DNA from: Bacteroidaceae bacterium
GTDB lineage: Bacteria; Bacteroidota; Bacteroidia; Bacteroidales; Bacteroidaceae
Reading direction: 5' to 3'
Assembly: GCA_017469925.1 (NCBI GenBank)
Contig: JAFUFK010000005.1
Span: 1 to 64,000, forward strand
Length of the DNA: 64,000 bases
Shown here in pieces: positions 1,946-59,189 of this stretch. The position numbers were made by a program, and so were the translations under genes. Position 1 is the first letter of the stretch, and the number at the start of each line of letters is the position of its first letter. The notes beneath the pieces are model-generated. The model searched no databases. It was given only the letters and a program-made list of their open reading frames with translations, and was not told where the DNA came from.

Positions 1946-2020
1946 TTCACGCCGTGAAATCTGCATCCCACGTCGTGTAATATAAGTCTCACGCCGTGGG
2001 ATAAGTGCTCCACGACGTGG
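1946..2020. repeat. Palindrome array A: four CACGnCGTG units at 21-bp pitch
   Basis: The nine-base core CACGnCGTG occurs at 1948, 1969, 1990 and 2011, exactly 21 bp apart, with central bases C, T, C, A. The first copy extends to a 13-base inverted repeat (TTCACG-C-CGTGAA). The twelve-base spacers are not conserved, so the signal is the palindrome and its spacing rather than a simple tandem duplication. The array lies immediately upstream of the HU-HIG promoter, at roughly -36 to -110. It is one of four such arrays in this window. Confidence 0.95.
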
Positions 2021-2049
2021 GAAAGACCTTGCGTGATAGGGCGGTTTTG

Positions 2050-2068
2050 ATATTTACAAAGTAAATAT
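2050..2068 (-). terminator. Small AT-rich hairpin after the AraC-type gene
   Basis: ATATTTAC-aaa-GTAAATAT, eight perfect pairs, about 26 bp after the AraC-type stop codon. AT-rich and without a clear T-run, so only a weak terminator candidate. Confidence 0.35.
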
Positions 2069-2093
2069 TGCAAGGGTGACGTGGGGGGAAGGC

Positions 2094-3017
2094 CTACTTG
2101 CTCTCGCGATAGGCCTTGGGGGAGGAACCAGTGTGAGACTTGAACCAACGGCCGAAGAAGGACTGGTTGGGGAAGTTGAGGCTGTACGAGACCTCCTGAA
2201 TGCTCAGTGTGGAGTACTTGAGGAGGTTCTTCGACTCCAGGACCACGTATTCGTCAATCCACTCCGAGGGACCGCGGCCCGAGGTCTCGCGGATGAGTTT
2301 GCTCAGGTACTTGGGCGTGAGGTTCATTTGGTTGGCGTAGAAGGCTATCTTGCGTTGTTCGCGATAGTTCTCTGTGACGAGTTGGATGAAGCGGCGGAAG
2401 GTGGCTTCGTGGTGGCTCAGGATGTGTTGGTCTTTGGGCTGTTCCATCTTTTGCAACCAGAGGGAGAGGAATCCGTAGCCGAACGTCCTTACAGAGCATC
2501 GCACGGCCTCGTGGTAGTAGGGGAGCGAGTGGGGTTGGGCTATGCTCTCGGAGACGATGATTGCCAGATGGTGGAGATAGCGGAACTGTTCGGGGGTGAA
2601 GGCCAGGCAGGCCGATTGGCTAAAGGCGCTGGCCAGGGGGATGACTTTCTGTATCGAGAGGTTCAACTGTTCGAAGAAGTCGCCGCTGGAGAGAATGGTG
2701 GAGACCTTGCAGTCGCGGGTCGAGGTCACTTGTACGATGGAGCCCGGGCGGACGACGAGTATCATGTTGGCGCCGATGGAGAGTTGCTGGAGGTCGCAGG
2801 TGAGCGTGATTTCGCCCTGTTGGCAGAACATGACGGCGAAGAGGTCGAGGCGGGTAGGGTAGCGGAAGAGTGATTCGCCCTTGTGGAGTTCCCTGTCGTT
2901 GACGTCGGTAATGACGTAGCAACGGTCTTCGTAGAGTTGTCCGCGGCTGATGTCGAGGGTGCCGTCCCTGAGCAGGCGGAAGATGGAGATGGTGTTGAAA
3001 ATGTGTGCGTCGGTCAT
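2094..3017 (-). CDS. AraC-family transcriptional regulator
   Basis: 307 residues. The N-terminal two-thirds has a cupin-like sensor region (for example LFAVMFCQQGEITLTCDLQQLSIGANMILVVRPGS). The last 100 residues form the AraC/XylS double helix-turn-helix: IAFYANQMNLTPKYLSKLIRETSGRGPSEW followed by the second element SIQEVSYSLNFPNQSFFGRWFKSHTGSSPKAYR. ATG 3017 is chosen because a TAAATTTG promoter box (plus-strand 3039-3046) sits just upstream and rules out the longer start. The gene is divergent from the RND efflux operon at 3186, so control of that operon by this protein is a reasonable inference. Ligand unknown. Confidence 0.9.
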   Translation of the reverse strand: MTDAHIFNTISIFRLLRDGTLDISRGQLYEDRCYVITDVNDRELHKGESLFRYPTRLDLFAVMFCQQGEITLTCDLQQLSIGANMILVVRPGSIVQVTSTRDCKVSTILSSGDFFEQLNLSIQKVIPLASAFSQSACLAFTPEQFRYLHHLAIIVSESIAQPHSLPYYHEAVRCSVRTFGYGFLSLWLQKMEQPKDQHILSHHEATFRRFIQLVTENYREQRKIAFYANQMNLTPKYLSKLIRETSGRGPSEWIDEYVVLESKNLLKYSTLSIQEVSYSLNFPNQSFFGRWFKSHTGSSPKAYRESK

Positions 3018-3038
3018 AGGTTGTTCTGATTTAGGCCA

Positions 3039-3046
3039 CAAATTTA
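3039..3046 (-). promoter_or_regulatory. -7 element of the AraC-type gene
   Basis: Minus strand TAAATTTG, about 22 bp upstream of ATG 3017, giving a very short leader. Confidence 0.55.
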
Positions 3047-3122
3047 GGTTTTTTATTTCAAATATCCCTAAAAAGTAATGCACGAATTCGACCTTTCGAA
3101 CAAAACTTATCCCTATAAGGCC

Positions 3123-3153
3123 TTTGCCGTGTGCAAAGAATAGTGTAACTTTG
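3123..3153 (+). promoter_or_regulatory. Promoter of the RND efflux operon
   Basis: TTTG at 3123-3126 and TAACTTTG at 3146-3153, separated by 19 bp: an exact Bacteroidetes consensus. It shares the intergenic region with the divergent AraC-type promoter. Confidence 0.85.
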
Positions 3154-3185
3154 CACCCGAAAACCGAAAATAAGAAAAACTGAAT

Positions 3186-4202
3186 ATGAAAAAGATGTTA
3201 TTGGTGCTTGCCAGCCTGGCCTTGGTGGCCTGTGGCGGCAAGCAAGAGTCGCAGACCGAGGAGGCCGTGCGCGTCGTGACGGAGAAGGCCGTGATGACGA
3301 GCGACTACAGCCAGTTGCCTTACGTGGGCGTGGTGGAGGAGGAGTCGAGCACAATGGTCAGCTTTACGGGCATGGCCGTCCTGAAGTCGATGACCGTGAG
3401 CGAGGGACAGAGCGTGAAGAAGGGTCAGCTATTGGCCACCATCGACGACACGCAGGCGCGCAACGCCCTGGCTGCTGCCAAGGCCTCGCTCGACCAGGCT
3501 CTCGATGCCCAGCAGCGCATGAAGCTGTTGCACGACAACCAGTCGCTGCCCGAAATCAAGTGGGTGGAGGTGGAGAGCCAGGTGCAGCAAGCCCGCTCGG
3601 CCTACGACATTTGCGTGAAGAACCTCTCCGACTGCCGCATCTATGCGCCCGTGAGCGGCGTTGTGGGCAGCAAGATTCTGGGCGTGGGCGAGACCGTACT
3701 GCCTACGGAGCCCGTCCTGACCATTCTGTCGATTAATAATGTAAAGGTGCGCGTGAGCATACCCGAGCGCGAGATAGCCTCCATTACGGCCCAGACGCCG
3801 ACCCGACTGACCGTCGATGCCCTGCCAGGCGAAACGTTCGTGGGCGGAACCATCGAGAAGGGCGTATCGGCCGACCCCATGACGCATACCTACGACATCC
3901 GCATCCGTGTGGCCAATCCCGGGCACAAGTTGCTGCCGGGCATGGTGGCCCGTGTCACGATGAACGGCTCGAAGGGCTTCGAGGACAAACGGCTCACCCT
4001 GCCCGTAAAGGCTGTGCAGCAATCGACCGACAAGTCGCTCTTCGTCTGGGTCGTCCGCGACGGTAAGGCCTATCGGCAGAGTGTCAGCGTGGGCGAGATG
4101 ACGGGCAATCGTGTCATCGTCCTTTCGGGCCTGACCGAGGGCGAGGAGGTCGTCGTCGAGGGATATCAGAAGTTGGGCGAAGGGAGCCCCATAACACGCT
4201 AA
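3186..4202 (+). CDS. RND efflux periplasmic adaptor lipoprotein
   Basis: 338 residues. The N-terminus MKKMLLVLASLALVACGG is a lipoprotein signal with lipobox cysteine at residue 16. It is followed by the membrane-fusion-protein order: beta-barrel/lipoyl half (MAVLKSMTVSEGQSVKKGQLLATIDD), an alpha hairpin (about 90-145, with QQRMKLLHDNQSLPEIKW), second lipoyl half (IYAPVSGVVGSKILGVGETV), beta-barrel and membrane-proximal domain (LTLPVKAVQQS...VWVVRDGKAYRQSVSVG). It would bridge the inner-membrane pump and the outer-membrane channel. It is the first gene of the operon, three bases before the pump gene. Substrate unknown. Confidence 0.93.
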   Translation: MKKMLLVLASLALVACGGKQESQTEEAVRVVTEKAVMTSDYSQLPYVGVVEEESSTMVSFTGMAVLKSMTVSEGQSVKKGQLLATIDDTQARNALAAAKASLDQALDAQQRMKLLHDNQSLPEIKWVEVESQVQQARSAYDICVKNLSDCRIYAPVSGVVGSKILGVGETVLPTEPVLTILSINNVKVRVSIPEREIASITAQTPTRLTVDALPGETFVGGTIEKGVSADPMTHTYDIRIRVANPGHKLLPGMVARVTMNGSKGFEDKRLTLPVKAVQQSTDKSLFVWVVRDGKAYRQSVSVGEMTGNRVIVLSGLTEGEEVVVEGYQKLGEGSPITR

Positions 4203-4205
4203 ACT

Positions 4206-7200
4206 ATGGACTGGCAGAAATCATGGGCCGCTTGGCCCATCAATAATTACCGCATCACGATTGTCATCACGGCCCTGCTGTTGGCATTCGGCCTCTATGG
4301 CCTCTACGTGATGCCGAAGGACGAGTTTCCGCCCTTTACCGTGCGCCAGGGCGTGGTCATTGCCGTAATGCCTGGTGCCACGAGCGAAGAGATAGAGGCC
4401 CAGGTGGCCCGCCCACTCGAGCGCTACCTCTTTACCTTCAAGGAGGTGAAGCGTGAGAAGACAACCACCACCAGCCAGAACGGCATGTGTATCGTGATGG
4501 TCCAGTTGCAGGACGATGCCGACCAGAAGGACGAAATCTGGAGCAAGCTGAAGCACGGCCTCAATACCTTCAAGAGCCAGTTGCCCAGTGGGGTGGTGGC
4601 GCTGATAGTGAACGACGACTTCGGCGACGCCTGTGCCCTCCTGATAACCCTCGAGAGCGACCAGCGCAGCTATCGCGAGTTGCAAGGCTATAGCGACGAA
4701 CTGACTGACCGCCTGCGCCGTGTGGCTTCGGTGTCGAACGTCCGCCAGTATGGCGAGGTGAAGGAACAACTGACCCTCTACGTCGATCGCGAGCGATTGG
4801 CCGCCTACGGCATTGGTCAGGCTGCCCTGATGCAGGCCATCGGCGGGCAGGGACTCACGACGATGGCTGGCAGCGTGACGGGTGGCGAACAGAACATCCA
4901 ACTCCATGTCTCGCCCACACAGCGGAGCGAGGAGGAACTGATGAACCAAATCGTGTTCTCGTCGGACAGCAGGGTGGTGCGCGTGCGCGATATTGCCACC
5001 GTGCGCCGCGAGTACGACACCTCGGAAAGCTACATCGAGAACAATGGCAACCGCTGTGTCATACTCTCCTTAGAGATGAGCGAGGGCCACAACATCGTGA
5101 AGTACGGCGAGGAGGTGGACGAGGTCATTGCCCGGTTCAAGGAGGAATACCTGCCCCAGGACGTAGAGATACGCCGCGTTACCGACCTTCCGCAGGTGGT
5201 GGGCGACTCGGTCCACGACTTCCTGCGCGACCTCATTGAGTCGATGATTGTCATCGTCCTGGTGATGATGATTCTCTTCCCTCTGCGTTCGGCCATCGTG
5301 GCGGCCATCACCATCCCCCTGAGCACGTTTACCAGCACGGGCATTATGTACGCCTGCGGCATCCCCCTGAACACGATGACGCTGGCCTGCCTCATCGTGG
5401 TGCTGGGAATGATTGTCGATAACTCGATTGTCGTCATCGACGGCTACCTGGAGTACCTGGGTAAGGGCATGGGCCGCAGGGAGTCGGCCGTCAAGTCGGT
5501 CCAGCAATACTTTGCCCCGATGATGTTGGCCACTATCTGTATCTGTGCCATCTTCTTCCCGCTCGTACTTACGATGACGGGCGAGGCCCACGACGTCATT
5601 GGTCAGTTCCCCGTCACCATCACCATCAACCTGATGGTCTCCCTGGCAGTGGCCGTGGCCGTCATTCCCGTGCTCAATGCAGCCCTCATCAAGCGCGTGG
5701 AGCCGCAGGAGGAGGGTAAGTTGAAGTTGACCGACCGCGTTCAGCTCATCTACGAAAAGGCCTTGAAGTGGACCTTCAAGAACCCCTGGCTGACGATAGT
5801 GGGCGCTGCGGTGTTGGTCATTGCCACCAGCTTCATTTTCCCTCAGCTGAAGATGCGCCAGTTCCCCTATGCCGACCGCAACCAGTTTGCCGTCGAGATA
5901 TTCCTGCCCGAGGGCGAAGGCCTCGACCGTACTCGCGAGATTGCCGACTCGCTGCGCGACGTCCTGAAGCGCGACGAGCGCGTCCAGAGCGTCACCTCGT
6001 TCATCGGGTGCAGCAGTCCGCGCTTCCAGATTTCCTACGCCCCACAGATGGGTGGCAGGAACTTTGCCCAGTTCATTGTCAATACGCCCGACATCCAGAG
6101 CACCTTCGACGTGCTAAACGAATATGCCCCCAAGTGGAGCAACCACTGGCCTGGCGCCTACGTGCGCTTCAAGCAGATGGACTTCCTGCCCGTGCCCACC
6201 TACGAATACCGCTTCTACGGAAACGACATGGACAGCATCAGCCGGGCCGCCGAAATGCTGATGGCCGAGATGCGCCGCATGCCCGAACTCGAGTGGGTCC
6301 ACACCGACTACGACCAGCCCCATCCCATCCTCGACGTAGCCCTCGACCCCGTCAGCTCGGCCCAGTTGGGCATCAATCGCACGACGGCCCAGTTGCAGTT
6401 GATGTTGCAGACGGGCGAGATGCAGGTCGGCAGCATTTGGGAAGGCGACTACGAAGTGCCCATCGTCGTGAAGGACGAGGCCTCGACCCACCTCACTCTG
6501 GGCGAGGTGGGCAATGCCTACCTGACAACCCAGACGGGCCAGAGTGTCCCCCTGCGCCAAGTGGCCAAGGTGCGGCCCACATGGTCGGAGGCAAAGATTG
6601 TCCATCGCAACGGCGAGCGTTGCATCAGTGTCCTGGCTGAGGGCAAGCGCGAGGTGCTGGCCGCTCCCGTGCAGGCCAAGATAGCCAAGGTCATCGACGG
6701 ACTGCAACTGCCCCGCGGCGTGCGCAGCGAGATTGGCGGCGAGGTGGAGAAGAACAACGAGATGGTGCCCCAGATATTTGCGGGCATCGGCATTGCGCTG
6801 GTCATTATCTTCTTCTTCATCCTCTTCAACTTCAAGCGCTTCGGCATCACCACCATCTGTATGGTAGCCATCGGCCTCAGTATGCCCGGTGCCATGATAG
6901 GCCTATGGATTGCCAACCGGACGCTGGGCCTGACCTCCCTCTTCGGATTCATCACCCTCATGGGCATCATTATGCGTAACGAAATCCTCATCTTCGAACA
7001 TGCCGACGACCGCATGGCGCAGGGCTGGTCGGCCCACGACGCTGCCTTCGACGCGGGGCGCCGCCGCATGGTTCCCATCTTCCTCACGACGGCCACGACG
7101 GCCGTGGGCGTCATCCCAATGATTATCGCAGGTTCGTCGTTCTGGATGCCCGTCGGCATCACCATCTTCGCCGGTGGCATCGGCACGCTCATACTTGTCG

Positions 7201-8630
7201 TCACCGTCCTGCCCGTCGTGTATTGGAAACTCCGGGACAAGACACCCTCCCGTCCTCCCCGAGGGGAGGGGAAGGCCATCGCCCTTGCGCTCTTGCTGTT
7301 ATTGCCCATGACATCCTGGGGCATGACAGGGGAGGAACAGGGGGAGAGGGTCCTCTCCTTGGACGAATGCCTGGAATTGGCAAAGCAGAACAACCGCACG
7401 CTCCAAAATGCGGCCCTCGACATCGAGATGGCCAAGGAGCAGCGCCGCGAGGCCTTCACCAAATACTTCCCCTACATCCAGGCCAATGTCTTGGCCTTCC
7501 GTGCCTTCGACGAGATGGTCAAGGGCGACGGCACCATACCGATGGAGATTGCAGCCATCAATCCCCAGTTTGCCGCCTACGCGGGCGCACCCTTCTCGTA
7601 CAGCGAGTTCAACCGTGCCTACTCGGCCGCCCTCGTCCTGACGCAGCCCCTCTATGCGGGCGGCCAAATCCGCGCCGGCAACCAGTTGGCACGCATCGGC
7701 GAGGAGGCGGTTACCCTGCAACGGCAGATGAAGGAGAAGGACGTCCTGCAGAAGGTCGCCGAGTGCTACTGGCAGACGGCTACCGTCAAGTACAACCTCT
7801 CCACCCTCGAGGCAGCCGAGAAGCAGGTCGGCGCCGTCTGCGATCTGGTGACCGACTACGTCAACGCCGGACTGACCACGCGCAACGACCTCCTCAAGGT
7901 CCAGCTGCGCCAGCAGGAGTTGGCCTCGAACCGCCTGAAACTGGAGAATGCCGAACACGTCCTCCTACTCCTTCTGGCCCAGCAGATAGGCATGGCCGGA
8001 AAGGCAATTGACATCGACCCCGCATCGCTCGAGCCCCGGAATCCTGCCGAGGTTAGGGTGGCCGTCGATGAGGCCGTCGCCCGTCGCGAGGAGATGGCCC
8101 TCGTGGAGAAGCAAGTCGAGGCCGGCGAGTGGCAAGTCCGTCTCGAGCGTGGCAAGTACCTGCCCACCCTGGCCGTCGGTGCCATGGGCTACAACGCAGG
8201 CATGGGCGGATTCTCCGACAACGTCAAGAAATACCTCGACACGAACATGACCAACGGACTCGTCTTCGGCACCCTCTCGGTGCCCATCATGTCGTGGTGG
8301 GGTGGGCGGCACGCCATCCGTCGCCAGCAACTGCGTGTCCAGCAGGCCCGCAACGAGGCCGACGACGCCCGTGAACAGCTGGCCCTCGACGTCGAGCAGG
8401 CTTGGAGCCAACTGACCGAGGCCTACAAGCAGACCGAGATAGCCCGCACCAGTGTCGAGCAGGCCGCCGAGAACCTGCGACTCTCCACCGACCAGTACCG
8501 TGCCGGCACGCTCACCCTCTCCGACCTCCTCGATGCCGAGACTCTCAACCGTCAGGCCCTCAACCAACTCTCCGAGGCCCTCGCCACCTACCAGGTCCGC
8601 CTCGCCGACTACCAACGCAAAACCCGTTAA
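4206..8630 (+). CDS. RND efflux pump fused to TolC-type outer-membrane channel
   Basis: 1474 residues in one uninterrupted frame. Residues 1-1015 are an AcrB/MexB-type RND permease: TM1 near 17-36, porter domains, the TM4 region VVLGMIVDNSIVVIDGY, a second porter half and the final TM block ending VVTVLPVVYWKLRDK. Residues 1024-1474 are a TolC-type outer-membrane efflux protein beginning with a signal-peptide-like stretch (KAIALALLLLLPMTSWG) and then LSLDECLELAKQNN, with the long coiled-coil repeats of the family. The join (1016-1023) is encoded by a small repeat with a CCTCCCC-ga-GGGGAGG inverted repeat (7254-7269), where a stop and an ATG would be expected. Pump-TolC fusions are known in Bacteroidetes CusA-like proteins. 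Release of the channel by signal peptidase at the internal signal is my inference. Confidence 0.9.
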   Translation: MDWQKSWAAWPINNYRITIVITALLLAFGLYGLYVMPKDEFPPFTVRQGVVIAVMPGATSEEIEAQVARPLERYLFTFKEVKREKTTTTSQNGMCIVMVQLQDDADQKDEIWSKLKHGLNTFKSQLPSGVVALIVNDDFGDACALLITLESDQRSYRELQGYSDELTDRLRRVASVSNVRQYGEVKEQLTLYVDRERLAAYGIGQAALMQAIGGQGLTTMAGSVTGGEQNIQLHVSPTQRSEEELMNQIVFSSDSRVVRVRDIATVRREYDTSESYIENNGNRCVILSLEMSEGHNIVKYGEEVDEVIARFKEEYLPQDVEIRRVTDLPQVVGDSVHDFLRDLIESMIVIVLVMMILFPLRSAIVAAITIPLSTFTSTGIMYACGIPLNTMTLACLIVVLGMIVDNSIVVIDGYLEYLGKGMGRRESAVKSVQQYFAPMMLATICICAIFFPLVLTMTGEAHDVIGQFPVTITINLMVSLAVAVAVIPVLNAALIKRVEPQEEGKLKLTDRVQLIYEKALKWTFKNPWLTIVGAAVLVIATSFIFPQLKMRQFPYADRNQFAVEIFLPEGEGLDRTREIADSLRDVLKRDERVQSVTSFIGCSSPRFQISYAPQMGGRNFAQFIVNTPDIQSTFDVLNEYAPKWSNHWPGAYVRFKQMDFLPVPTYEYRFYGNDMDSISRAAEMLMAEMRRMPELEWVHTDYDQPHPILDVALDPVSSAQLGINRTTAQLQLMLQTGEMQVGSIWEGDYEVPIVVKDEASTHLTLGEVGNAYLTTQTGQSVPLRQVAKVRPTWSEAKIVHRNGERCISVLAEGKREVLAAPVQAKIAKVIDGLQLPRGVRSEIGGEVEKNNEMVPQIFAGIGIALVIIFFFILFNFKRFGITTICMVAIGLSMPGAMIGLWIANRTLGLTSLFGFITLMGIIMRNEILIFEHADDRMAQGWSAHDAAFDAGRRRMVPIFLTTATTAVGVIPMIIAGSSFWMPVGITIFAGGIGTLILVVTVLPVVYWKLRDKTPSRPPRGEGKAIALALLLLLPMTSWGMTGEEQGERVLSLDECLELAKQNNRTLQNAALDIEMAKEQRREAFTKYFPYIQANVLAFRAFDEMVKGDGTIPMEIAAINPQFAAYAGAPFSYSEFNRAYSAALVLTQPLYAGGQIRAGNQLARIGEEAVTLQRQMKEKDVLQKVAECYWQTATVKYNLSTLEAAEKQVGAVCDLVTDYVNAGLTTRNDLLKVQLRQQELASNRLKLENAEHVLLLLLAQQIGMAGKAIDIDPASLEPRNPAEVRVAVDEAVARREEMALVEKQVEAGEWQVRLERGKYLPTLAVGAMGYNAGMGGFSDNVKKYLDTNMTNGLVFGTLSVPIMSWWGGRHAIRRQQLRVQQARNEADDAREQLALDVEQAWSQLTEAYKQTEIARTSVEQAAENLRLSTDQYRAGTLTLSDLLDAETLNRQALNQLSEALATYQVRLADYQRKTR
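7254..7269. repeat. Inverted repeat at the RND-TolC fusion junction
   Basis: CCTCCCC-ga-GGGGAGG, seven pairs with a two-base loop. It resembles the CCCTCCC-rich intergenic repeat at 62311-62461 and replaces the place where the TolC start codon would lie. Confidence 0.75.
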
Positions 8631-8697
8631 ACGGTTAAACTCTTAAACGATTAAACTCTTAAACGGTTAAACTCTTAAACGGTTAAACTCTTAAACA
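8631..8697 (+). repeat. Tandem TTAAA octamer repeat
   Basis: Eight-base units alternate as CGGTTAAA and CTCTTAAA (once CGATTAAA), an effective 16-bp period, filling almost the whole 73-bp gap between the pump gene and the permease gene. The same family, in the same sense relative to transcription, occurs at 23201-23229 and 47548-47690. Confidence 0.9.
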
Positions 8698-8703
8698 TTT
8701 ACA

Positions 8704-9924: not shown

Positions 9925-9947
9925 TTTTCGAGTGCAACAAATGCAAA

Positions 9948-9983
9948 AAATGCAACAAATCGATTTGTCGATTTGTTGCATTT
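9948..9983. terminator. Bidirectional hairpin between convergent genes
   Basis: A perfect 16-bp stem, AAATGCAACAAATCGA (9948-9963) pairing with 9968-9983, loop TTTG. It lies between the permease stop and the convergent lyase-like gene stop at 10009. A-rich on one side and T-rich on the other, so it can serve both directions. Confidence 0.75.
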
Positions 9984-10008
9984 GGATTTTCGTCCCCGTT
10001 CTTTTGCG

Positions 10009-12807: not shown

Positions 12808-12838
12808 GCGAAAGATGTGTTTAAGAGGTTTTGCGATG

Positions 12839-24085: not shown

Positions 24086-24167
24086 GTGCCACGCGTGACA
24101 CTATGCTGTGCCATGGGTGGCACAACTTTGTGCCATCGGTGGCACGACCCTGTGCCATACGTGGCAC
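24086..24167. repeat. Palindrome array B: four GTGCCA-n4-TGGCAC units at 22-bp pitch
   Basis: Sixteen-base units start at 24086, 24108, 24130 and 24152, exactly 22 bp apart. Arms GTGCCA and TGGCAC are perfect in copies 2-4; copy 1 has TGACAC. The four central bases (CGCG, TGGG, TCGG, TACG) and the six-base spacers vary. The array lies between panB and the promoter of the fasciclin/SusCD operon, ending 47 bp before its -33 box. Confidence 0.95.
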
Positions 24168-24214: not shown

Positions 24215-24245
24215 TTTGTCGGGTCGTGGAATTGGCGTATATTTG
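24215..24245 (+). promoter_or_regulatory. Promoter of the fasciclin/SusCD operon
   Basis: TTTG 24215-24218 and TATATTTG 24238-24245, 19 bp apart: exact consensus. Confidence 0.85.
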
Positions 24246-24311: not shown

Positions 24312-27179
24312 ATGAAAAACAGTATGCTAAAGCGAAGAATTGCCCGCTGGGCCGTTCCCGTTTGTGCTGCTTTCGTCATGGGTGGCGGACTATCGTCGTG
24401 CAGCGACGACCTGCTGGTCGGACAGCCCTCGTGGCTGGGCGAAAGCATCTACGAAGAGTTGGAGTCGGGCAGGCATGGCAATTTCAGTGAGACACTGAAA
24501 CTCATCAATGCCCAGGACGAGGACTACGCCTCCGTCTTGCGCAAGACGGGTTCGAAGACCCTGTTTGTGGCCGACGACGCAGCGTGGGCAGAGTTCTACA
24601 AGAACAATCCTTGGGGCGTCAAGAGCATTGAGGACATGAGCGACGCTCAGAAGAAACTCGTCTTCAAGGCCAACATGATCAACAGCGCCTATCTGGTGGA
24701 ACTGCTCGGTAACATCCCCAGCTCGACGGCCGACGACCCTGTAGAGGGTTCGTGCATGAGACGAGCCACGTCGGTGAACCTGATGGACTCCGTGCCCCTG
24801 GTGACGCGCGACAAGTACCCTGTGGTCAATGCCGCCCGCATCGACATGGCAACGGGTAAGCAGGTTGACTACTGGTCCGTCCTGCGCGACAAGGAGCAGA
24901 TGCGCATTCTGGAGGATGACGGTGTGCAGAGCATGATTCACTTTATGCCGAAGTTCATGCAGAACAACAACATCACGAGCGACGACGTTTCGTTCCTGAC
25001 CAATGGCGAAATCAACTCGAACGAGGGCGCCTTCGTCAACGGCAAGGTCATCACGCAGAAGGACATCACCTGCCAGAACGGTTACATCCACGTCCTCGAA
25101 GGCGTGGCCCTGCCGCTTGATAACATGGCCAACGTCATTGCAGGTAACCCGCAGTTCAGCATCTACAGCCGTCTGCTCGACCGATTCTCGTACCCCCACT
25201 TCGATGCCACGGCCAACCGTGAATACCATCGCCAGTACGGAGGCAACGACGAGGATACGGCAGTATTCGTGCGTAAGTATTTCAACAACCACAGCAACGT
25301 CTCCTTCGAGCGTATGGACGACAATACTCAGGTGAGTTCCGTGCTGCCCTATGACCCGGGATGGAATCTCTATCGCCTGAGCAGTACCAGCGGCATCACG
25401 TTCCAGCACGATGCAGCCGCCATGCTCGTCCCCACCGACGAGGCCCTGCGTCGCTACCTGGAGACCGACGGTGCCGACCTCGACGAGCGCTATGGCAAGG
25501 CTGGTGACGGCGAGACCGCTTGGGACAACGCACCCGACGCCGTAGTCCTGCCTCTCTTACAGAACACGATGCTGACGAGCCTGAAGGCCGCCGTGCCCAG
25601 CCAGTTCCAGAGTATCAATAATACTGCCGGTGAGCGCATGGGCGTGAAGAAGACTGACATCGACTCCGTACTGTGGGCCTGCAACGGTGTGATTTACCAG
25701 ACCAACAAGGTATATGTGGCTCCCGAGTACGTCAGTGTCTATTACCCCTGCGTAATCCGCGCCAACGACGACCTGCACATCGTCTATAGCGTTGTACAGC
25801 GCGATAGCCGTACGAGCAGCGACAACACCGACGCCGAAGGTTACTATGCCTACCTGAACAATATGGGCAGTAAGCTGAGCTTCATCATTCCTACGGACAA
25901 TGCCCTCCAGACCTACTACGACCCCGTGAGCTACAAGCGCACGAATACCCGTGACGAATCGACGGCATTGGCCTATAAGTTCAAGATGGATGGCGTAAGG
26001 GTTACTGCCGACCTGTATCCCGTCGATTGGACTGCACTCGACGACTACGGACGTGGTACCATTGACGAACAGGCCACTCGCGACTTCACGGTAGGAAGTT
26101 CGGAGAAGAACGACGCCTTCTACCACTTCAAGGACATCATGAACAACTCGCTGGCTACGGGCCTGTTCACTCCTGGCCAGAAATTCTACCAGAGCAAGAG
26201 CGGCTCCCCCATCATCGTGGAGTGGGACGGTGCGACGGTTAAGGGCGTGGCCGGTTCCTTCCAGTACGAACGTGGTTACTATGTACCCGTCCTTGAAAAG
26301 TACGAGAAGGCTGCCGGTAACGGACAGAGCTACATCATCGACAATGAGCCCCTGATGAGCACCTTCACAAGTCCCTATGCCGCCATCACAGACTCCCTAA
26401 GGATGGACCGCTTCGGCTCGTTTGCCAACCTGCTCGAGAGCATGGTGAACACCACCGACGGTGCCAATCATGCCACAATGGACAAGTGTCTGCCGACGCT
26501 GAACAATTACCACTATACCATCTACGTGCCTACTAACGAATCGATAGACGAGCTGGTGGACCAGCACTTGCTGCCCACATGGGACGACGTCGACGACGTA
26601 AACTCCTGCATCGAGGTTATTGACGACAAGATTGCCAAGGAAGAGGCAGCGGCTGGCGAAGAGGTGACCGACCTCATCAAGGAACTCACCGAACAGCGCG
26701 ACTACCTGGAAGGACAGGCTAAGGTGATGACACAGGTTATCGAAAACTTCGTCAACTATCACATCCAGGATAACTCAGTATTCCTGGAAGGTGAGGAACA
26801 TGCGAACGACGTATTCGAGAGTGCTTGCCTCGACACCCTGACCAACCGTTTCGTAAAGCTCTACGTCAACTACTCGCAGGGCGGCGACCTGACGGTGACC
26901 GACAACACGGGCAAGACCCATCGCGTAGATAAGGACTGCTGCAACATCCTGACCCGGCAGTACTACTTCAACGGCGCTTCGCTGCTGAAGAGCAATGCCT
27001 GCACGAGAATCTTCTCGTCGGCCTATGCTGTGGTTCACCAAATCGACTCTCCGCTGGTGCCCTTCAGCGGTTGCTACTATGACCCGGCAGAGTTTGACAA
27101 GGTGCAGGAGGTGCTGGCAGCTCACCCCGTGGATAACGACGTAACCCCAACTCCTAACCCTATTAAGCGCAGAAGATGA
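24312..27179 (+). CDS. Fasciclin-domain surface lipoprotein (955 aa)
   Basis: A long lipoprotein signal ends at LSSC (cysteine near residue 30). Fasciclin-like repeats are visible: KTLFVADDAAWAEFY with GYIHVLEGVALPLDNM, AAMLVPTDEALRRYL, SFIIPTDNALQTYY and TIYVPTNESIDELV. A helical insert (about 770-820) and the tail VTPTPNPIKRRR end the protein. Fasciclin domains usually mediate adhesion or protein contacts; in SusCD loci of this phylum such proteins probably act as surface accessory lipoproteins. First gene of the seven-gene operon; its stop overlaps the SusC start (ATGA). Confidence 0.85.
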   Translation: MKNSMLKRRIARWAVPVCAAFVMGGGLSSCSDDLLVGQPSWLGESIYEELESGRHGNFSETLKLINAQDEDYASVLRKTGSKTLFVADDAAWAEFYKNNPWGVKSIEDMSDAQKKLVFKANMINSAYLVELLGNIPSSTADDPVEGSCMRRATSVNLMDSVPLVTRDKYPVVNAARIDMATGKQVDYWSVLRDKEQMRILEDDGVQSMIHFMPKFMQNNNITSDDVSFLTNGEINSNEGAFVNGKVITQKDITCQNGYIHVLEGVALPLDNMANVIAGNPQFSIYSRLLDRFSYPHFDATANREYHRQYGGNDEDTAVFVRKYFNNHSNVSFERMDDNTQVSSVLPYDPGWNLYRLSSTSGITFQHDAAAMLVPTDEALRRYLETDGADLDERYGKAGDGETAWDNAPDAVVLPLLQNTMLTSLKAAVPSQFQSINNTAGERMGVKKTDIDSVLWACNGVIYQTNKVYVAPEYVSVYYPCVIRANDDLHIVYSVVQRDSRTSSDNTDAEGYYAYLNNMGSKLSFIIPTDNALQTYYDPVSYKRTNTRDESTALAYKFKMDGVRVTADLYPVDWTALDDYGRGTIDEQATRDFTVGSSEKNDAFYHFKDIMNNSLATGLFTPGQKFYQSKSGSPIIVEWDGATVKGVAGSFQYERGYYVPVLEKYEKAAGNGQSYIIDNEPLMSTFTSPYAAITDSLRMDRFGSFANLLESMVNTTDGANHATMDKCLPTLNNYHYTIYVPTNESIDELVDQHLLPTWDDVDDVNSCIEVIDDKIAKEEAAAGEEVTDLIKELTEQRDYLEGQAKVMTQVIENFVNYHIQDNSVFLEGEEHANDVFESACLDTLTNRFVKLYVNYSQGGDLTVTDNTGKTHRVDKDCCNILTRQYYFNGASLLKSNACTRIFSSAYAVVHQIDSPLVPFSGCYYDPAEFDKVQEVLAAHPVDNDVTPTPNPIKRRR

Positions 27180-42040: not shown

Positions 42041-42125
42041 GCCGAAAGACGCGCGTCTTTCGGCTGTAAGATGCGCGTCTTTCGCTTGTAAGATGTGCGT
42101 CTTTCGGCTGTAAGATGCGCGTCTT
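42041..42125. repeat. Palindrome array C: four AAGAyGyGCGTCTT units at 22-bp pitch
   Basis: Fourteen-base cores at 42046, 42068, 42090 and 42112, exactly 22 bp apart. Copy 1 sits in a perfect 24-base palindrome (42041-42064). Central variants are ACGCGCGT, ATGCGCGT, ATGTGCGT and ATGCGCGT. Here the eight-base spacers are also alike (TCGGCTGT twice, TCGCTTGT once), so the array still looks like a recent duplication. It lies beyond the operon terminator. Confidence 0.95.
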
Positions 42126-42270
42126 ACATTGCAGACTTCTATACATTTCCCTTGAGGCAGTCAGACATTTCGGGCAAAGCGCTTAGGCAATGCGACCTTT
42201 GCATCGCCTCTTTTTGTAAGCAACCCACAAAAAAACGACCGTTCAACGTTAAACATTAAACTTTTATTTG

Positions 42271-42278
42271 TATATTTG
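42271..42278 (+). promoter_or_regulatory. -7-like element before the BspA-like gene
   Basis: TATATTTG, 25 bp before the short frame at 42303 and 192 bp before ATG 42470. No good -33 box at the usual spacing. Confidence 0.45.
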
Positions 42279-42469: not shown

Positions 42470-45400
42470 ATGAAACATTTAAGATTACTCCTTTCCGTGC
42501 TCCTGCTGTTAGCAGTGGGTACTGTCGAAGTGAAGGCAGTAGAAGCCTATGTCAGTTACGACAATGGTACTTTGACCTTCTATTTTGACAATTACCGTTC
42601 GTCACATACAACAACGTATGATTTAGATGGATGGGTGTATGAAAAACGTCCTTGGGTGTTGTATCATCAGTATGATATTACTTCCGCCGTTTTCGACTCT
42701 TCGTTTGCCAATGCGGACCCCACGACTACAAGCCATTGGTTCGAGGGTTGTCTTAATTTAACTTCCATAACTGGCCTTGAGTTTCTCAACACTTCGAGTG
42801 TAACCTCTACGATCTACATGTTCAAAGGTTGCACAAGTCTGACCTCGCTCGACCTTTCTAACTTCAATGCGGAAAACGTCGAACACATGAATTCTATGTT
42901 CTAGGGCTGCACCTCCCTGAAGACCATCTATTGCGCCAATAGTTGGAGTGCACCTAATTCAACTGATATGTTCAAGGGTTGCACGTCTCTGGTAAGCCAG
43001 ACATCCGGACTCAGTTACGATGCGTCGAAGACCGATGTCACCTATGCCAACCCCATAACGGGTTACTTTACAGACACGCCCTATGCTGCCTATACACCTA
43101 CGAACAATACGCTGACTTTCTATCGCGACAACCAAAAGGCCACACGCGCAGGCACCATCTTCGAGTTGAATAAGGTGGGATATTATCCTGGCTGGGTAGA
43201 AAATAGTAATGTTACGATTAAGCATGTGGTGTTCGATGAGTCGTTTGCCACTGCACGGCCAAAGATCACCAGCGACTGGTTCCGTAAATTGACGGTGTTG
43301 GAGGACATCACGGGACTCAGTTACCTGAACACCGAGGAAGTGACATCCTTTGGCAGTATGTTCTACGAGGCATCGGGCCTTACCGATATTGACGTCTCCT
43401 CATTCAACACCAGCAAGGCCACCGACATGAGTTGCATGTTCTATGGCATGAGTAGTCTTTCCAGTCTCGACGTGAGTAGTTTCGACACGGAGAACGTAAC
43501 AGATATGGGCAACATGTTCACGGATTGCAGCAGTCTGACCACCCTCGACCTCTCGAACTTCAATACTAAGAAAGTACGCCGCATGACCCAGATGTTCAAT
43601 GATTGCAGTTCACTGACGACCATCTACGCAGGCGACAACTGGAACACTGATGCCGTGACTGGAAGTTCTGTCATGTTTCTGAACTGCACAAGCATCGTGG
43701 GGCGCAACGGAACGACGTACGATGCAAGCCACATCACCGCAGAATATGCCCGCTTGGACAACGCACCGACCAGCCCAGGCTACCTGAGCGACACCAGCAG
43801 CGCAAGTTATCAGAACGTCAGCCTGCAAGTGACCATCCTGGGCGAGGGCACGCTGATTCTGACCAACAGCGAGGGAGAAGGTGTAGAAACCATCACCGGT
43901 GGCTCAACGGCGACTGTCAACTGGACGAAGGGCACCCGCCTGCAACTGGTGGCTAGAGGTCCCGAGGGCACTGACCTCACCGACGCTCGGGCCTATATCT
44001 TCGTCGACGGCGTTTCTCGTGAGATGGTGAAAATTACAGGAGTCGACAACATCTTCTTCCAATATGAGATGGAGGAAGTCATTAAGGCCCACACCTTCAC
44101 CGTCGTGATGACAGGCATCGGCTCGAAAACCGACCTCATCGAGTTTGCCGATGAGAACGTGAAGGCCATCTGCGTAGAGAACTGGGATACTGACGGCGAC
44201 GGTGAACTCTCGAAGCAGGAGGCTGCTGCCGTGACGACGCTTTTGAAAGACGGCAATTCGGTATTTAAGAGCCTCAAAGACCATGTGACTTCGTTCGATG
44301 AATTCCAGTACTTCACTGGCCTGACAACCATTGAAGATTACGCTTTCTACAATGACAGTCTGAAGAGTATCGTACTGCCCAGTACGGTTACGTCTATAGG
44401 TGATTATGCATTTTATTATAACAGGTTTAAAACTATACGTCTTCCTGAAGGAATAACAAGCATTGGTAATTATGCTTTTTATGGTTGTAGGAACCTCGAA
44501 GAATTGACTTTGCCGGAAAGCTTGACGAGTATTGGGTACTTTGCCTTCCAAGGCTCTGCTATTAAGCAAATCTTTATACCAAAGAATGTCAACAGTATCA
44601 CGCCAGGTGTAGGTGCTGACATCTTCTCTAATTGTAAGAGTCTGGTAAGCATTGCGGTAGATGATGACAACCAGACCTATGACTCGCGCAACAATTGTTC
44701 GGCAATTATTTGGAATACTTCATCCAGTACCTATCTGCTCTATGGCTGTAAGAAAACGATTATTCCCAATGGAGTGACAACAATATGGATGCAGGCGTTC
44801 CGAGAGTGTGGACTTACCAAAATCACAATCCCAGAGACCGTAATGGCCATTGGACGGAGTGCTTTCGTTGCTAATCAGTTAGACACTCTAATCATGGAGC
44901 GCCGCGAGCCTATCACGTTTAATAAGAATTCGTTTAATGAGTTCTCTTCGTCTTCAACGCTTAGTGAGATATCGAATTGCGTTCTCGTTGTTCCCAATGG
45001 AACTCTGACGGCATACAACAATGCTGGCTGGAAGACAATAGATGATGGCGGATACTTCAAGGAAATCGTGGAGGCTGCTGAGGATAATCCAGAACCCACA
45101 GAGTATCAAGTCAAGGTTTCAAGCACAGAGGGTGGAGAGACGACGATTTACTATACGGATCCGAACGATGAAACTTGGAATGCCTTCTTTAATAACGAGA
45201 ATAGTACTATACGTTACGCCATAAAATCTGGCACAGACGTAAGATTTGTGTTTAAACCAATTCAGGGTCGTGAACTGGGCTTTGTGGTTGCAGGTTCGAA
45301 CCGAACCATCGGTGAGGGTTGTGACATTGTTCCTCAGGACGACGGCACTTATGAATTTACCCTTTCTGCCAGCGAGTTTGATAATGGGCAGGCCCATGTC

Positions 45401-45502
45401 ATGGTTTACTACAAGAAACGCGACGGCGACGTGAACGGCGACGGTAGTATTACCATTGCCGACGTGACGAAACTGGTGAATAAGATTCTTGGAAAGGAGT
45501 AG
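42470..45502 (+). pseudogene. BspA-like leucine-rich surface protein interrupted by one amber codon
   Basis: A signal peptide (LLLSVLLLLAVGTVEVKA) starts a 1010-codon frame with one internal stop, TAG at 42902-42904, exactly where the repeat motif MFKGCTSL expects lysine (MF-stop-GCTSL). Everything after it stays in frame to 45502. Codons 60-270 hold BspA/DUF285-type repeats (SSLTTLDLSNFNT...M). Codons 430-700 hold LRR_5-type repeats (LPSTVTSIGDYAFYYN, LPEGITSIGNYAFYGC). The end DGDVNGDGSITIADVTKLVNKIL is dockerin-like. Such proteins are surface adhesins. It is either a recent pseudogene, a readthrough gene or a sequencing error; a second piece could start at ATG 42968 but would lack a signal peptide. 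Confidence 0.85.
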
Positions 45503-46095: not shown

Positions 46096-46097
46096 AG

Positions 46098-47535: not shown

Positions 47536-47547
47536 TTTTATAAGGGT

Positions 47548-47690
47548 TTAAAAGTTTAATCGTTTAATCGTTTAACCGTTTAAGAGTTTAACCGTTTAAG
47601 AGTTTAATCGTTTAACCGTTTAAGAGTTTAACCGTTTAATCGTTTAAGAGTTTAACCGTTTAAGAGTTTAAAGGTTTAATCGTTTAATGG
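47548..47690 (-). repeat. Large TTAAAC-type tandem repeat
   Basis: About 17 imperfect 8-base units (on the minus strand TTAAACGA, TTAAACGG, TTAAACTC) fill the gap between sprA and the small membrane gene. Same family and same orientation relative to transcription as 8631-8697. Confidence 0.9.
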
Positions 47691-47707
47691 TCTAAGGTGC
47701 CTGGGGG

Positions 47708-55483: not shown

Positions 55484-55514
55484 TTCGTAACTCGCAATTC
55501 CTAACCCGTAACTC

Positions 55515-56108: not shown

Positions 56109-56185
56109 AACGTACGTATTCGCGTTTAATTACCTATTATATAACGCACGCACGCGCGCTTTATTGTGTAATGTCGCGAAATTCG

Positions 56186-56217
56186 TTTGCTCGGTTCGCC
56201 CTTTTTCATTAACTTTG
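56186..56217 (+). promoter_or_regulatory. Promoter of the cysQ-like gene
   Basis: TTTG 56186-56189 and TAACTTTG 56210-56217, 20 bp apart, 25 bp before ATG 56243. Confidence 0.75.
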
Positions 56218-56242
56218 CAGTCAATAACACAACACCGCATCT

Positions 56243-57064
56243 ATGGAACAGAACAATACGAAGTCCGCCCTCGGCCTGGCCATACGCGCCGCACTGGCTG
56301 CCGGGCGCGACATTATGGACATCTACACCGACCCCAGTCAGGACTTCGGCATCGAACGGAAGGCCGACAATTCACCCCTTACGCTGGCCGACAAGGCCGC
56401 CCACCGCCGCATCGTCGAGATGCTCTTGCAGACCACCCTCCCCATACTGAGCGAGGAGGGACGCCACGAGAACTACGAGGACCGCCGCAACTGGGTGGCC
56501 TTCTGGCTCATCGACCCTCTGGACGGTACCAAGGAGTTTATCAAGCGCAACGGAGAGTTCACGGTAAACATCGCCCTTGTGCTCGACGGTCGTCCTCACC
56601 TGGGTGTCATCTACGTTCCTGCACGTCGCGAACTCTACTTCGGCGACCCCCTGCTCGGGGCCTATAAACTGACCGACATCGACTCGCTGGGCGACGACGA
56701 GCGCCTGCCCGACCTCTTGCAACGTGCCACCCAGCTCCCCCTTCCTCAGCCCGAGGACCGGCCCTATACCATCGTAGCCAGCCGCAGCCACCTCTCGCCC
56801 GAGACGGAGCAGTTTATTGAGGAGGCCCGTCGGGAACGGGGCCGGGTGGAGACCCTCTCAAGCGGCAGCAGCCTGAAGATTTGCCTCGTGGCTGAGGGCG
56901 CGGCCGACGTCTATCCCCGCTATGCCCCCACGATGGAGTGGGACACCGCCGCAGGCCATGCCATTGCCTGTTGTGCGGGTCGCCAGGTCTATGAGGCCGG
57001 CACCGACCGTCCCCTCCGCTACAACAAGGAGGACCTGCATAATCCTTGGTTCATAGTTCGTTAG
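56243..57064 (+). CDS. cysQ: 3'(2'),5'-bisphosphate nucleotidase
   Basis: 273 residues. Inositol-monophosphatase-fold metal sites: LSEEGRHENY (glutamates), WLIDPLDGTKEFIKRNGEFTVNIAL (the DPLDGT motif) and the late APTMEWDTAAGHAI (WDTAAGHA). CysQ hydrolyses the PAP left after sulfate activation and sulfotransfer. The KEFI form of the motif favours CysQ over inositol monophosphatase. Two bases separate it from the next gene. Confidence 0.93.
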   Translation: MEQNNTKSALGLAIRAALAAGRDIMDIYTDPSQDFGIERKADNSPLTLADKAAHRRIVEMLLQTTLPILSEEGRHENYEDRRNWVAFWLIDPLDGTKEFIKRNGEFTVNIALVLDGRPHLGVIYVPARRELYFGDPLLGAYKLTDIDSLGDDERLPDLLQRATQLPLPQPEDRPYTIVASRSHLSPETEQFIEEARRERGRVETLSSGSSLKICLVAEGAADVYPRYAPTMEWDTAAGHAIACCAGRQVYEAGTDRPLRYNKEDLHNPWFIVR

Positions 57065-57065
57065 C

Positions 57066-57557
57066 ATGAAGCGCATCGGCCTCATGAGCGACACCCACGC
57101 CTGGTGGGACGACCGCTACCTGAAGTACTTCGAGGAGTGCGACGAGATATGGCACGCCGGCGACATCGGTTCGCTGGAGTTGGCCATGCGACTCCAGGAG
57201 TTCCGTCCCTTGCGTGCCGTCTATGGCAATTGCGACGGGGGCGACCTCCGTCGGCTCTTTACCGAGAAGTTGCGCTGGACCTGCGAGGGAGCCTCGGTGC
57301 TCATGACCCACATCGGCGGCTACCCCGGCCGCTACGAGCGCAGCATCTACCCACAACTTTGTTCGAACCCGCCCGACCTCTTCATCTCGGGCCATAGCCA
57401 CATACTGAAGGTGCAGTACGACGAGCGCCTCCACCTCCTGCACATCAATCCCGGAGCCGCAGGCCTGCAGGGCTGGCACCAGGTACGCACCCTCGTCCGC
57501 TTCAGCGTCGAAGAGGGGCAGTTCCGTGACCTCGAAGTCCTTGAAATCCCTCGTTAA
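57066..57557 (+). CDS. YfcE-type metallophosphoesterase
   Basis: 163 residues. The full set of calcineurin-like motifs: GLMSDTHAWW, WHAGDIGS, YGNCDGGD, THIGGYP, ISGHSHI. Small YfcE/MJ0936-type phosphodiesterases have broad activity; the natural substrate is unknown. Operon with cysQ. Its last four bases overlap the convergent MATE gene. Confidence 0.92.
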   Translation: MKRIGLMSDTHAWWDDRYLKYFEECDEIWHAGDIGSLELAMRLQEFRPLRAVYGNCDGGDLRRLFTEKLRWTCEGASVLMTHIGGYPGRYERSIYPQLCSNPPDLFISGHSHILKVQYDERLHLLHINPGAAGLQGWHQVRTLVRFSVEEGQFRDLEVLEIPR

Positions 57558-58927
57558 CTTCTTTTCCCCTTCACCTTCCTAATCAGCCACCAAAGCATGC
57601 CGATAGACGTAAAGAAGGCGGCAAGGTCGCTGACCGGTATGGCCATCCACACGCCGTCGAGCCCAAAGAAACGAGGGAAGATGAGCAGGCCCGGAACGAG
57701 GAAGAGGGCCTGACGCGTTACGCTCTGGAAGATGCTCTTGCCCGCATGGCCGATGCTCTGGAAGAAGTTGCCGATAACCATCTGGGCGCCTACGAGCGGG
57801 AACACCAGTACGTCGAGCCGGAACCCGTGGTCGGCCATCTCGATGATGGGTTGGTTGTCGGTAAAGAGGCGGGTGAGCACGTTAGGACAAAGTTCACCTA
57901 CGAGGAAGCCCGTACACGTCACCACCTCGGCACAGATGATGGTCAGGCGCAGGGTGCTCCATACGCGCTCGTCCTGCTTCGCCCCCCAGTTGTAGCCCAC
58001 GATGGGCTGCATGCCCTGGTTCAGGCCCATCACCATCATGACGAAGAGATAGACCACGCGGTTGACGATGCCGTAAGCCGCGATGGCCGTGTCGCCCCCG
58101 TACTGCTTCATGCCCGTATTGATAAGCACCACCACCAGGCAGGCACACAGGTTCATGAGGAACGGGCTCAGGCCGATGGCCAGAATCTGGCGCACGATGT
58201 CGGGTCGCAGTCCGTAGATGCCCCGTTGCAGGTGCAGCATTTGGTTCGGGTTGCTCATAATCTGGAACTGCCACGCCAGCGAGATGCACTGCGACAGTAT
58301 GGTAGCCAGCGCCGCGCCCTGTATGCCCCAGCCGAACCAGAAGATGAAGATGGGGTCGAGTATCGTATTTACCACCACGGTGAGCAGTGTGCAGTACATG
58401 GCCTTTGTCGGGTGTCCGCAGGCACGCAGCGTGCCGTTCATGCCGAAGTAGAGGTGGCTGAAGACGTTACCTCCGAGGATAATGAGCATGTAGTCGCGGG
58501 CGTAGGGCAGGGTGGCGTCGCTGGCGCCGAAGAGGCGCAGTATGGGGTCGAGCCAGTAGATGCCTGCTACCATGAAGATGAGTCCCAGGACAATCTTCAG
58601 CACGATGCTGTTGCCCAGGACCTGCTTTGCCGTTTCGTAGTCGCGCTGTCCCAGACGGACCGAAATGACCGTCGAGGCGCCCACGCCCACCATGGCCCCC
58701 AGCGCGGCCGAGATGTTCATGAGGGGGAAGGTCAGTGCCAGGCCCGAGATGGCCAGCCCGTCGGAGTTTCCCCACGAGCCGTCGGGTCCGATGTGGCCGA
58801 TGAAGATGCTATCGACGATGTTGTAGAGCGAGGCTGCCGTCATGGCAATGATGGCAGGCACGGCATACTCGAAGAGCAGTCGTGACACCTTGCGCGTGCC
58901 GAGTTCGGTGGGAACGTATTGGGCCAT
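57554..58927 (-). CDS. MATE family efflux transporter
   Basis: 457 residues, about twelve TM segments in two halves. Opening YAVPAIIAMTAASLYNIVDSIFIGHIG, then ALGAMVGVGASTVISVRLGQRDYETAKQVLGN and the second-half equivalent MGLNQGMQPIVGYNWGAKQ are NorM/MATE blocks. It would export cationic compounds using sodium or protons. ATG 58927 is chosen because the -7 box (58937-58944) overlaps the longer TTG start; the leader is then only a few bases. Confidence 0.93.
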   Translation of the reverse strand: MAQYVPTELGTRKVSRLLFEYAVPAIIAMTAASLYNIVDSIFIGHIGPDGSWGNSDGLAISGLALTFPLMNISAALGAMVGVGASTVISVRLGQRDYETAKQVLGNSIVLKIVLGLIFMVAGIYWLDPILRLFGASDATLPYARDYMLIILGGNVFSHLYFGMNGTLRACGHPTKAMYCTLLTVVVNTILDPIFIFWFGWGIQGAALATILSQCISLAWQFQIMSNPNQMLHLQRGIYGLRPDIVRQILAIGLSPFLMNLCACLVVVLINTGMKQYGGDTAIAAYGIVNRVVYLFVMMVMGLNQGMQPIVGYNWGAKQDERVWSTLRLTIICAEVVTCTGFLVGELCPNVLTRLFTDNQPIIEMADHGFRLDVLVFPLVGAQMVIGNFFQSIGHAGKSIFQSVTRQALFLVPGLLIFPRFFGLDGVWMAIPVSDLAAFFTSIGMLWWLIRKVKGKRS

Positions 58928-58936
58928 AATCGACTG

Positions 58937-58944
58937 CAAAGATA
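58937..58944 (-). promoter_or_regulatory. -7 element of the MATE gene
   Basis: Minus strand TATCTTTG, nine bases from ATG 58927. Confidence 0.6.
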
Positions 58945-59025
58945 GTGCAAAACGGGCGAAACGCCAAATATATCGGGCATTTCTTGCTCTGCCAGGTACG
59001 ACGGACGCCTCCTCTCGCCCCAGTC

Positions 59026-59053
59026 GCCTAATGGTTGTCGCCCGTGCGCCTAA
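59026..59053 (+). repeat. GCCTAA units upstream of array D
   Basis: GCCTAA at 59026 and 59048, 22 bp apart, each followed by a G-rich and GTCG-containing stretch, like the units at 59268-59317 (exactly eleven 22-bp steps further). Confidence 0.55.
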
Positions 59054-59111
59054 AAGGGTCGGGTGGGCCTCCCTTACGTGATAGACATCGCACTATCACA
59101 CATGATGTATC

Positions 59112-59189
59112 GAACCACGGTTCAAACGACATCGAACCATGGTTCAATATATAACGAACCACGGTTCAACGGAAAACGAACCATGGTTC
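59112..59189. repeat. Palindrome array D: four GAACC-rY-GGTTC units at 22-bp pitch
   Basis: Perfect twelve-base units at 59112, 59134, 59156 and 59178, exactly 22 bp apart, with central bases AC, AT, AC, AT in alternation. Ten-base spacers are A-rich but not conserved. The array lies between the MATE and HU-HIG promoters, ending 34 bp before the -33 position of the latter. Confidence 0.96.

Follow-up and report, generated by a model that had tools for sequence, protein, structure and literature searches.

Repetitive extragenic palindromic (REP) sequences and bacterial interspersed mosaic elements (BIME) consist of short palindromes that recur in intergenic DNA, frequently close to the ends of genes; in them, tag-bearing palindromes are linked to the RAYT transposase. 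Operator arrays of the Lrp, IHF or CRP type consist of helically phased sites adjoining promoters. The HU/IHF fold family packages DNA, and HU-like proteins are usually taken for unspecific packagers. We know of no accepted DNA target for the HU-like expansion of Bacteroidales; Burroughs and colleagues reportedly proposed in 2017 that HU-HIG proteins recognise mobile elements, and are not known to have described palindrome arrays of the kind treated here. In Porphyromonas gingivalis, the BrickBuilt element is described in the excerpted text of PMC4596501 as a miniature inverted-repeat transposable element (MITE) with a leader and a tail; it has 19 dispersed intergenic copies carrying tandem repeats at 23-nt pitch in variable count, and BrickBuilt_14 adjoins a gene annotated PF00216. 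The present analysis concerns a 64-kb stretch, called the window below, from a Bacteroidaceae bacterium whose 2.87-Mb draft genome of 28 contigs (G000) is referred to as the own genome. As the original prediction had reported, the window contains four arrays, A to D, built of unlike palindromes. These arrays belong to a large class, and we consider it probable that its members are binding sites of HU-HIG paralogues, each of which would read its own palindrome row at its own promoter and at dispersed sites.

The four window arrays form 22-24 of 28 possible arm pairs, compared with a maximum of 21 in ten Markov shuffles of the window. This score alone is not specific, because a simple 8-bp repeat of the window (at 47600, pitch 24) was also picked with 23 arm pairs. 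A motif-free search, of the kind that the original prediction had suggested as its own check, was made with a detector for runs of at least three similar palindromes at constant pitch, with one base of play and 15-45 bp allowed. Applied to the window together with 60 stretches (1.19 Mb) and then to 40 more (0.68 Mb), it yielded 86 arrays of 3-7 palindromes at a pitch of 20-23 bp in these 1.87 Mb. The median pitch was 20-24 bp in 88 arrays and at most 23.5 bp in the 86, with 66 of these at exactly 22.0 bp; the two pitch-24 arrays lie inside genes and were left out. Adjacent copies were spaced by 22 bp in 192 cases, the next highest count being 24, at 14 bp. Shuffled controls at this pitch gave no array for the 1.19-Mb set, one for the 0.68-Mb set and none in five 464-kb shuffles, and 200 kb of Escherichia coli K-12 contained no array at any pitch. 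By our own crude gene calls, 83 of the 88 arrays were intergenic, at a coding density of 85-90%. Sixteen random stretches of the own genome (320 kb) held 11 arrays, which extrapolates to roughly 100 per genome. The same periodicity was found by counting same-strand 6-mer pairs in 69 kb of own intergenic DNA: there were 618 pairs at 22 bp and 414 at 44 bp, compared with 9 to 177 at all other spacings from 8 to 60 bp, and this excess is a motif-free signature of the arrays.

The geometry of the class is looser than that of the window arrays. The original prediction had stated that the copy number is always four, that odd-centred palindromes have a pitch of 21 bp and even-centred ones of 22 bp, and that the nearest downstream start codon lies at a nearly fixed distance; the four arrays themselves stand, but these three rules, as well as the assignment of some downstream genes, do not. 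Copies per array numbered three in 35 of the 86 arrays, four in 39, five in 4, six in 6 and seven in 2, three being the floor of the detector, and one further array (L020) has 9-10 copies. In the own genome four copies are the mode, with exactly four in 34 of 40 arrays of four types: 12 of 14 for B, all eight for C, two of four for D (the others have five) and 12 of 14 for a fourth type, AACCAGTSACTGGTT. Among 14 odd-centred arrays the pitch was 21 bp in 3, 22 bp (rounded) in 7 and 23 bp in 4, and among 72 even-centred arrays it was 22 bp in 61, 21 bp in 5, 20 bp in 5 and 23 bp in 1. No start codon follows some of the B-, C- and D-type arrays, which are flanked by convergent genes.

Arrays were found to be enriched beside genes of the HU-HIG family. 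The own genome has 19 matches to this family, 17 of them above the cut-off. Across all sets, an array lay within 450 bp upstream of 30 of 82 HU-HIG genes and of 46 of 1397 other genes. The counts for the own genome alone were 8 of 16 HU-HIG genes (own profile) versus 18 of 583 others (Fisher p = 4e-8). The genus stretches, whose selection went by HU-HIG match irrespective of arrays, gave 16 of 42 versus 26 of 551 (Fisher p = 1e-9), and other families gave 6 of 24 versus 2 of 263 (Fisher p = 5e-6). In the other families 7 further HU-HIG genes of the 24 had an array just downstream, compared with 6 of 263 other genes (Fisher p = 1e-5), and on either side combined 37 of the 82 HU-HIG genes have one. 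The nearest named loci belong to metagenome-assembled genomes that carry the label Bacteroidaceae, Prevotellaceae or Bacteroidales, several of them recovered from the guts of ruminants, and seven of eight such loci (L020-L023 and L025-L027; none at L024) have an upstream array; since L026 and L027 show the same array and several loci are contigs of the genus set, these cases are not independent. When plasmid records were searched by tblastn for relatives of one HU-HIG protein, 12 hits were obtained; 11 of them were examined, and a Treponema hit was left out. One of the loci, L351 of Parabacteroides distasonis (a culturable species), has five palindromes at a pitch of 23 bp (4463-4569), 16 bp after the HU-family gene. 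In 44 HU-HIG-adjacent arrays the outer arms of the palindromes are rich in A (fraction 0.45-0.61 at positions 6-9, 5' of the centre) and the core varies; the genus and other families are alike in both respects. No other gene family was noticed to recur beside unlike arrays among the neighbours that were annotated, which are some of the total.

Four palindrome types are also dispersed through the own genome. Pattern searches of the own genome returned 14 arrays for B (reversed-pattern control, 0), 8 for C, 4 and one pair for D, and 54 pair matches in at least 14 distinct arrays for the fourth type (AACCAGT type), the controls for the last three being 0 as well. One array of the fourth type lies 278 bp upstream of the HU-HIG gene C22:25299, by the start used, and one C-type array lies upstream of the HU-HIG gene G000:C19:77585. 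Further C arrays separate a mechanosensitive-channel-like gene from leuA, a DNA polymerase IV-like gene from an hsp90-like gene, and a trypsin/PDZ protease gene from a sigma-70 gene with regions 1.2, 2, 3 and 4; one each adjoins a glycosyltransferase gene and a nucleotidyltransferase gene, and the one at L310 is flanked by two genes without a Pfam name here (one scanned). The C array at the sigma-70 gene (L308, 6057-6305) has four copies and is located 169 bp upstream of that gene; if it is functional, one HU-HIG protein would touch the promoter of a sigma factor. Two of the eight C arrays (L306 and L310) lie between convergent genes, and from these and other non-promoter places it follows that the sites are not confined to promoters. 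Among 139 genomes of the genus, B-type pairs were found in seven (own included) and D-type pairs in two (G000 and G045). G045 has a D-type array beside a HU-HIG gene whose product is 58% identical to the D protein, and a two-copy D site elsewhere. An orthologous B locus was present in the own genome (L140) and in G180 (L220) between the same genes (88% and 72% protein identity), and at this one locus 39 of 40 arm letters agree, versus 28 of 42 other positions (Fisher p = 3e-4).

Promoter-like boxes, called with a -7 consensus that we take to be of the Bacteroidetes type, lie between array and gene at 13 HU-HIG-adjacent arrays, D included. The subfamily closest to the D protein was delimited by a filter set after seeing the data (150-166 aa, start MAI, MAV or MAL). 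All seven of its promoters that have a TAnnTTTG box carry this box 41.5 + 22k bp away from the centre of the last palindrome, with k between 0 and 3. Over all 13 promoters the phasing is weaker, with a p value of 0.02 at 22 and at 10.5 bp and of 0.17 at 11 bp, and since the promoters are related by descent these values are nominal. The label of a regulatory element, used in the original prediction, is thus borne out in part: it suits the 13 arrays with a box, but dispersed arrays are also situated between convergent genes or immediately past stop codons.

From these patterns we infer binding, one protein per palindrome, dimers in a certain number, and a possible effect on transcription or the chromosome. 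In the proposed mechanism, HU-HIG proteins would be a branch of paralogues within the HU/IHF fold, and each of them would read one palindrome as a dimer. About four palindromes two helix turns apart would accommodate about four dimers along a single DNA face, and the loaded row would be one defined nucleoprotein patch of roughly 90 bp. An array beside the gene of its own reader would allow feedback control, and the dispersed arrays of the same palindrome would be the target set of that reader, some at promoters and some at gene ends. A promoter role is best supported beside HU-HIG genes, and at gene ends the patch may equally well act as a roadblock, a boundary or a nucleoid anchor. The original prediction had suggested one architecture read by several paralogous proteins; the like geometry, the unlike palindromes beside HU-HIG paralogues in the own genome, the genus and other families, and the recurrence of the palindromes elsewhere in the own genome agree with this proposal. 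If so, the arrays are a concrete candidate site for part of the HU-like proteins, target sets could be predicted from one array, and a branch of the HU/IHF fold may have become a diversified sequence-specific family. A broader idea, which we put forward only tentatively, is that Bacteroidales possess many-channel DNA addressing with up to about 20 HU-like readers per genome, each with a private palindrome. Rows of about four palindromes at two-turn pitch would then stand beside the own gene and at scattered intergenic sites, four in-phase bends would wrap about 90 bp into a defined particle, and new channels would arise by joint change of gene and array.

Several results weigh against HU-HIG proteins as the readers. 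For 45 of the 82 HU-HIG genes no array was detected within 450 bp on either side. On the Bacteroides-group records an array stands directly beside the gene at one of 11 HU-family loci, the other ten having three-copy runs farther off (four) or none (six). Similarity between protein and palindrome in 44 protein-array pairs correlates weakly (rho 0.13, permutation p = 0.03), which is seen above 55% identity and not detectably below, and a general link of this kind was given up as weak. B is one of the largest types, and in none of the seven genomes with B arrays does one of these arrays adjoin a HU-HIG gene (six of the genomes judged by coordinates, some arrays being near contig ends); adjacency failed as a means to find the reader of B. 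At the promoters, the eighth array of the D-like subfamily (L078) has no TAnnTTTG box, six HU-HIG promoters with a box outside this subfamily show no common 22-bp register, and paralogous promoters are not independent. In addition, 43 classified intergenic arrays away from HU-HIG genes comprise 11 convergent, 27 tandem and 5 divergent cases, compared with 83, 334 and 143 among 560 intergenic stretches of at least 80 bp (own and genus), so that such arrays lean towards gene ends and away from promoters.

This excess of convergent and deficit of divergent places, the dispersed intergenic placement and the packaging of DNA by the fold family would suit arrays that act mainly as chromosome organisers, that is, anchors or boundaries read by HU-HIG proteins with little effect on single promoters. 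We regard this as a rather doubtful alternative, since some HU-adjacent arrays precede promoter-like boxes at stepped distances and the number of arrays per type, over the four types counted, is only 4 to about 14. The arrays could instead be selfish elements that were dispersed by copying in the manner of REP or MITE repeats, with HU-HIG genes merely carrying one or assisting. Many arrays do follow closely on a stop codon or have convergent neighbours. The AACCAGT type was found in one of the 139 genus genomes; one and the same altered copy (AAGGAG/CTCCTT) recurs in each of its 14 arrays shown, and 22 of 91 array pairs have common flanks, as do 10 of 28 pairs of C-type arrays. Flanks are almost unshared for B (1 of 91) and D (0 of 6), yet four to five copies are kept in most of these arrays, indicating that some types spread recently together with their surroundings and others did not. 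A B array is retained by two species at one orthologous locus, its arms conserved. The enrichment by HU-HIG genes of many unrelated palindromes in several families would not be expected of passengers, and selfish spread is in our view unlikely to explain the class.

A different DNA-binding family might also read the arrays, the HU-HIG genes being just among its targets. The B arrays without a HU-HIG neighbour and the many HU-HIG genes without an array would fit such a reader; the link, however, holds with different palindromes in several families, and an array is present up- or downstream at 13 of 24 other-family loci, which leaves this explanation with quite a small chance. Least credible is that the palindromes are RNA hairpins serving as terminators or stabilisers, and we think this highly improbable. 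Palindromes near gene ends would be in keeping with it, but the pitch is fixed at 22 bp and many arrays lie upstream of HU-HIG genes. In B a pyrimidine occupies position 7 in all 108 halves of 54 units, and the 7/10 pair is mispaired (C opposite A) in 22 of the 54 units with no compensated arm change; because the letter at position 7 is kept despite mispairing, B behaves as a DNA half-site rather than a hairpin. An Rfam scan of the window found only a tRNA and no match at the arrays.

Table 1 Arrays, promoter-like boxes and neighbouring genes in the window
Feature	Position	Strand	Description
Array A	1945..2022	-	Four odd-centred palindromes, core CACGNCGTG, pitch 21 bp, upstream of minus-strand HU-HIG gene
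Promoter-like TATCTTTG box	1914..1921	-	Bacteroidetes -7 type, between array A and HU-HIG gene
HU-HIG protein beside A	1158..1796	-	212 aa from the start used here; PF18291
Array B	24086..24167	.	Four palindromes GTGCCAY-N2-RTGGCAC, pitch 22 bp; 1 of 14 own-genome B arrays
Promoter-like TATATTTG box	24238..24245	+	Downstream of array B
Fasciclin-domain gene	24312..27179	+	Downstream of array B; start 24312 or 24378
Array C	42045..42126	+	Four palindromes AAGAYGYGCGTCTT, pitch 22 bp; 1 of 8 own-genome C arrays
Promoter-like TATATTTG box	42271..42278	+	Downstream of array C
DUF285 gene and BspA-type leucine-rich-repeat gene	42470..45502	+	Downstream of array C
Array D	59110..59213	+	Four palindromes GAACCAYGGTTC and a weaker fifth (59198-59213), pitch 22 bp; 1 of 4 own-genome D arrays
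Promoter-like TACCTTTG box	59247..59254	+	Between array D and HU-HIG gene
HU-HIG protein beside D	59363..59833	+	156 aa, basic C-terminal tail; proposed reader of D

The features of the window are listed in Table 1. The HU-HIG genes adjoining A and D have their arrays 149-150 bp upstream. At A the downstream gene had been misassigned in the original prediction: the gene that starts 149 bp away is the minus-strand HU-HIG gene, preceded by its own box, and a plus-strand frame at 2076 overlaps an AraC-type gene on the opposite strand. Against PF18291 (Pfam gathering cut-off 26.2 bits) the D protein scored 88.2 bits and the A protein (frame 1158-1916) 46.8 bits, both above the cut-off, and against HU_rel TIGR01201 (NCBIfam cut-off 68.6 bits) they scored 71.9 and 50.2 bits, respectively. 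The C-terminal part of the A protein resembles a winged helix-turn-helix (DIP2311-like_C, 22.1 bits, below the cut-off of 27); the Pfam scan of the D protein found no such domain. PADLOC gave no match for four proteins, and a search by sequence with profile A1 gave no solved structural relative.

Some further observations concern variants of the arrays and other repeats. CCTAGG-N4-CCTAGG arrays have a pitch of 20 bp instead of 22 bp; five were found in two genomes (G025 and G060), where they are wedged in between genes or overlap them, within about 35 bp (L085 3489-8100, L113 157-1015). Double arrays at L076 (11477-11615) and L192 (5310-5448) consist of three TTCG-CCGCGG-CGAA palindromes adjoining three TTCGATGCGCATCGAA-like ones, possibly two readers at one site, and single TTCG-type arrays are present in L182 and L183. 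At L061 (8995-9124) six copies of AAGATTAGTAATCTT at a pitch of 23 bp lie 877 bp upstream of a HU-HIG gene and about 40 bp from another gene. The window also has tandem 8-bp TTTAAACG-like repeats at 8627-8696 and 47546-47696, which can be read as period 16 or 24 too, and a similar run lies near a HU-HIG gene in L006. A second 22-bp direct repeat (CCTAAG), suspected from the flanks, was rejected, as only 4 of 296 intergenic stretches contain CCTAA pairs spaced by 21-23 bp.

Among the matches listed in our literature search, judged by title and the opening of the abstract, none describes this element or gives an account of the DNA target of the HU-like expansion. The genes beside A and D fall within HU-HIG by the PF18291 cut-off, and the descriptions of the HU-HIG and HU_rel families (PF18291, TIGR01201) name no DNA target. 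BrickBuilt, the nearest element described, is alike in being an intergenic, dispersed, constant-pitch tandem repeat of Bacteroidales, and the excerpted text of PMC4596501 proposes no specific protein reader for it. Its published unit is no more palindromic than its own shuffles (13989 of 20000 reach its score), and for this reason the arrays were not filed as BrickBuilt. The 23-nt unit AGAYCATARTATCCTCTCRTRTG, searched as a 39-base tandem stretch with up to three mismatches, was found in 0 of 393 genomes of the order, a set that includes G000 and apparently not P. gingivalis. With REP and BIME the arrays have in common dispersed multi-copy intergenic palindromes (four types and 40 arrays in the own genome), whereas here the palindromes stand head-to-tail at a fixed 22-bp pitch, several unrelated types share a genome, and the types are linked to HU-HIG genes. 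In contrast to ordinary operator arrays, the rows are mostly of four at a two-turn pitch, use many unrelated palindromes and occupy non-promoter places too. Rows of short palindromes between the genes of gut and rumen bacteria may thus be sites at which each HU-like neighbour reads its own.

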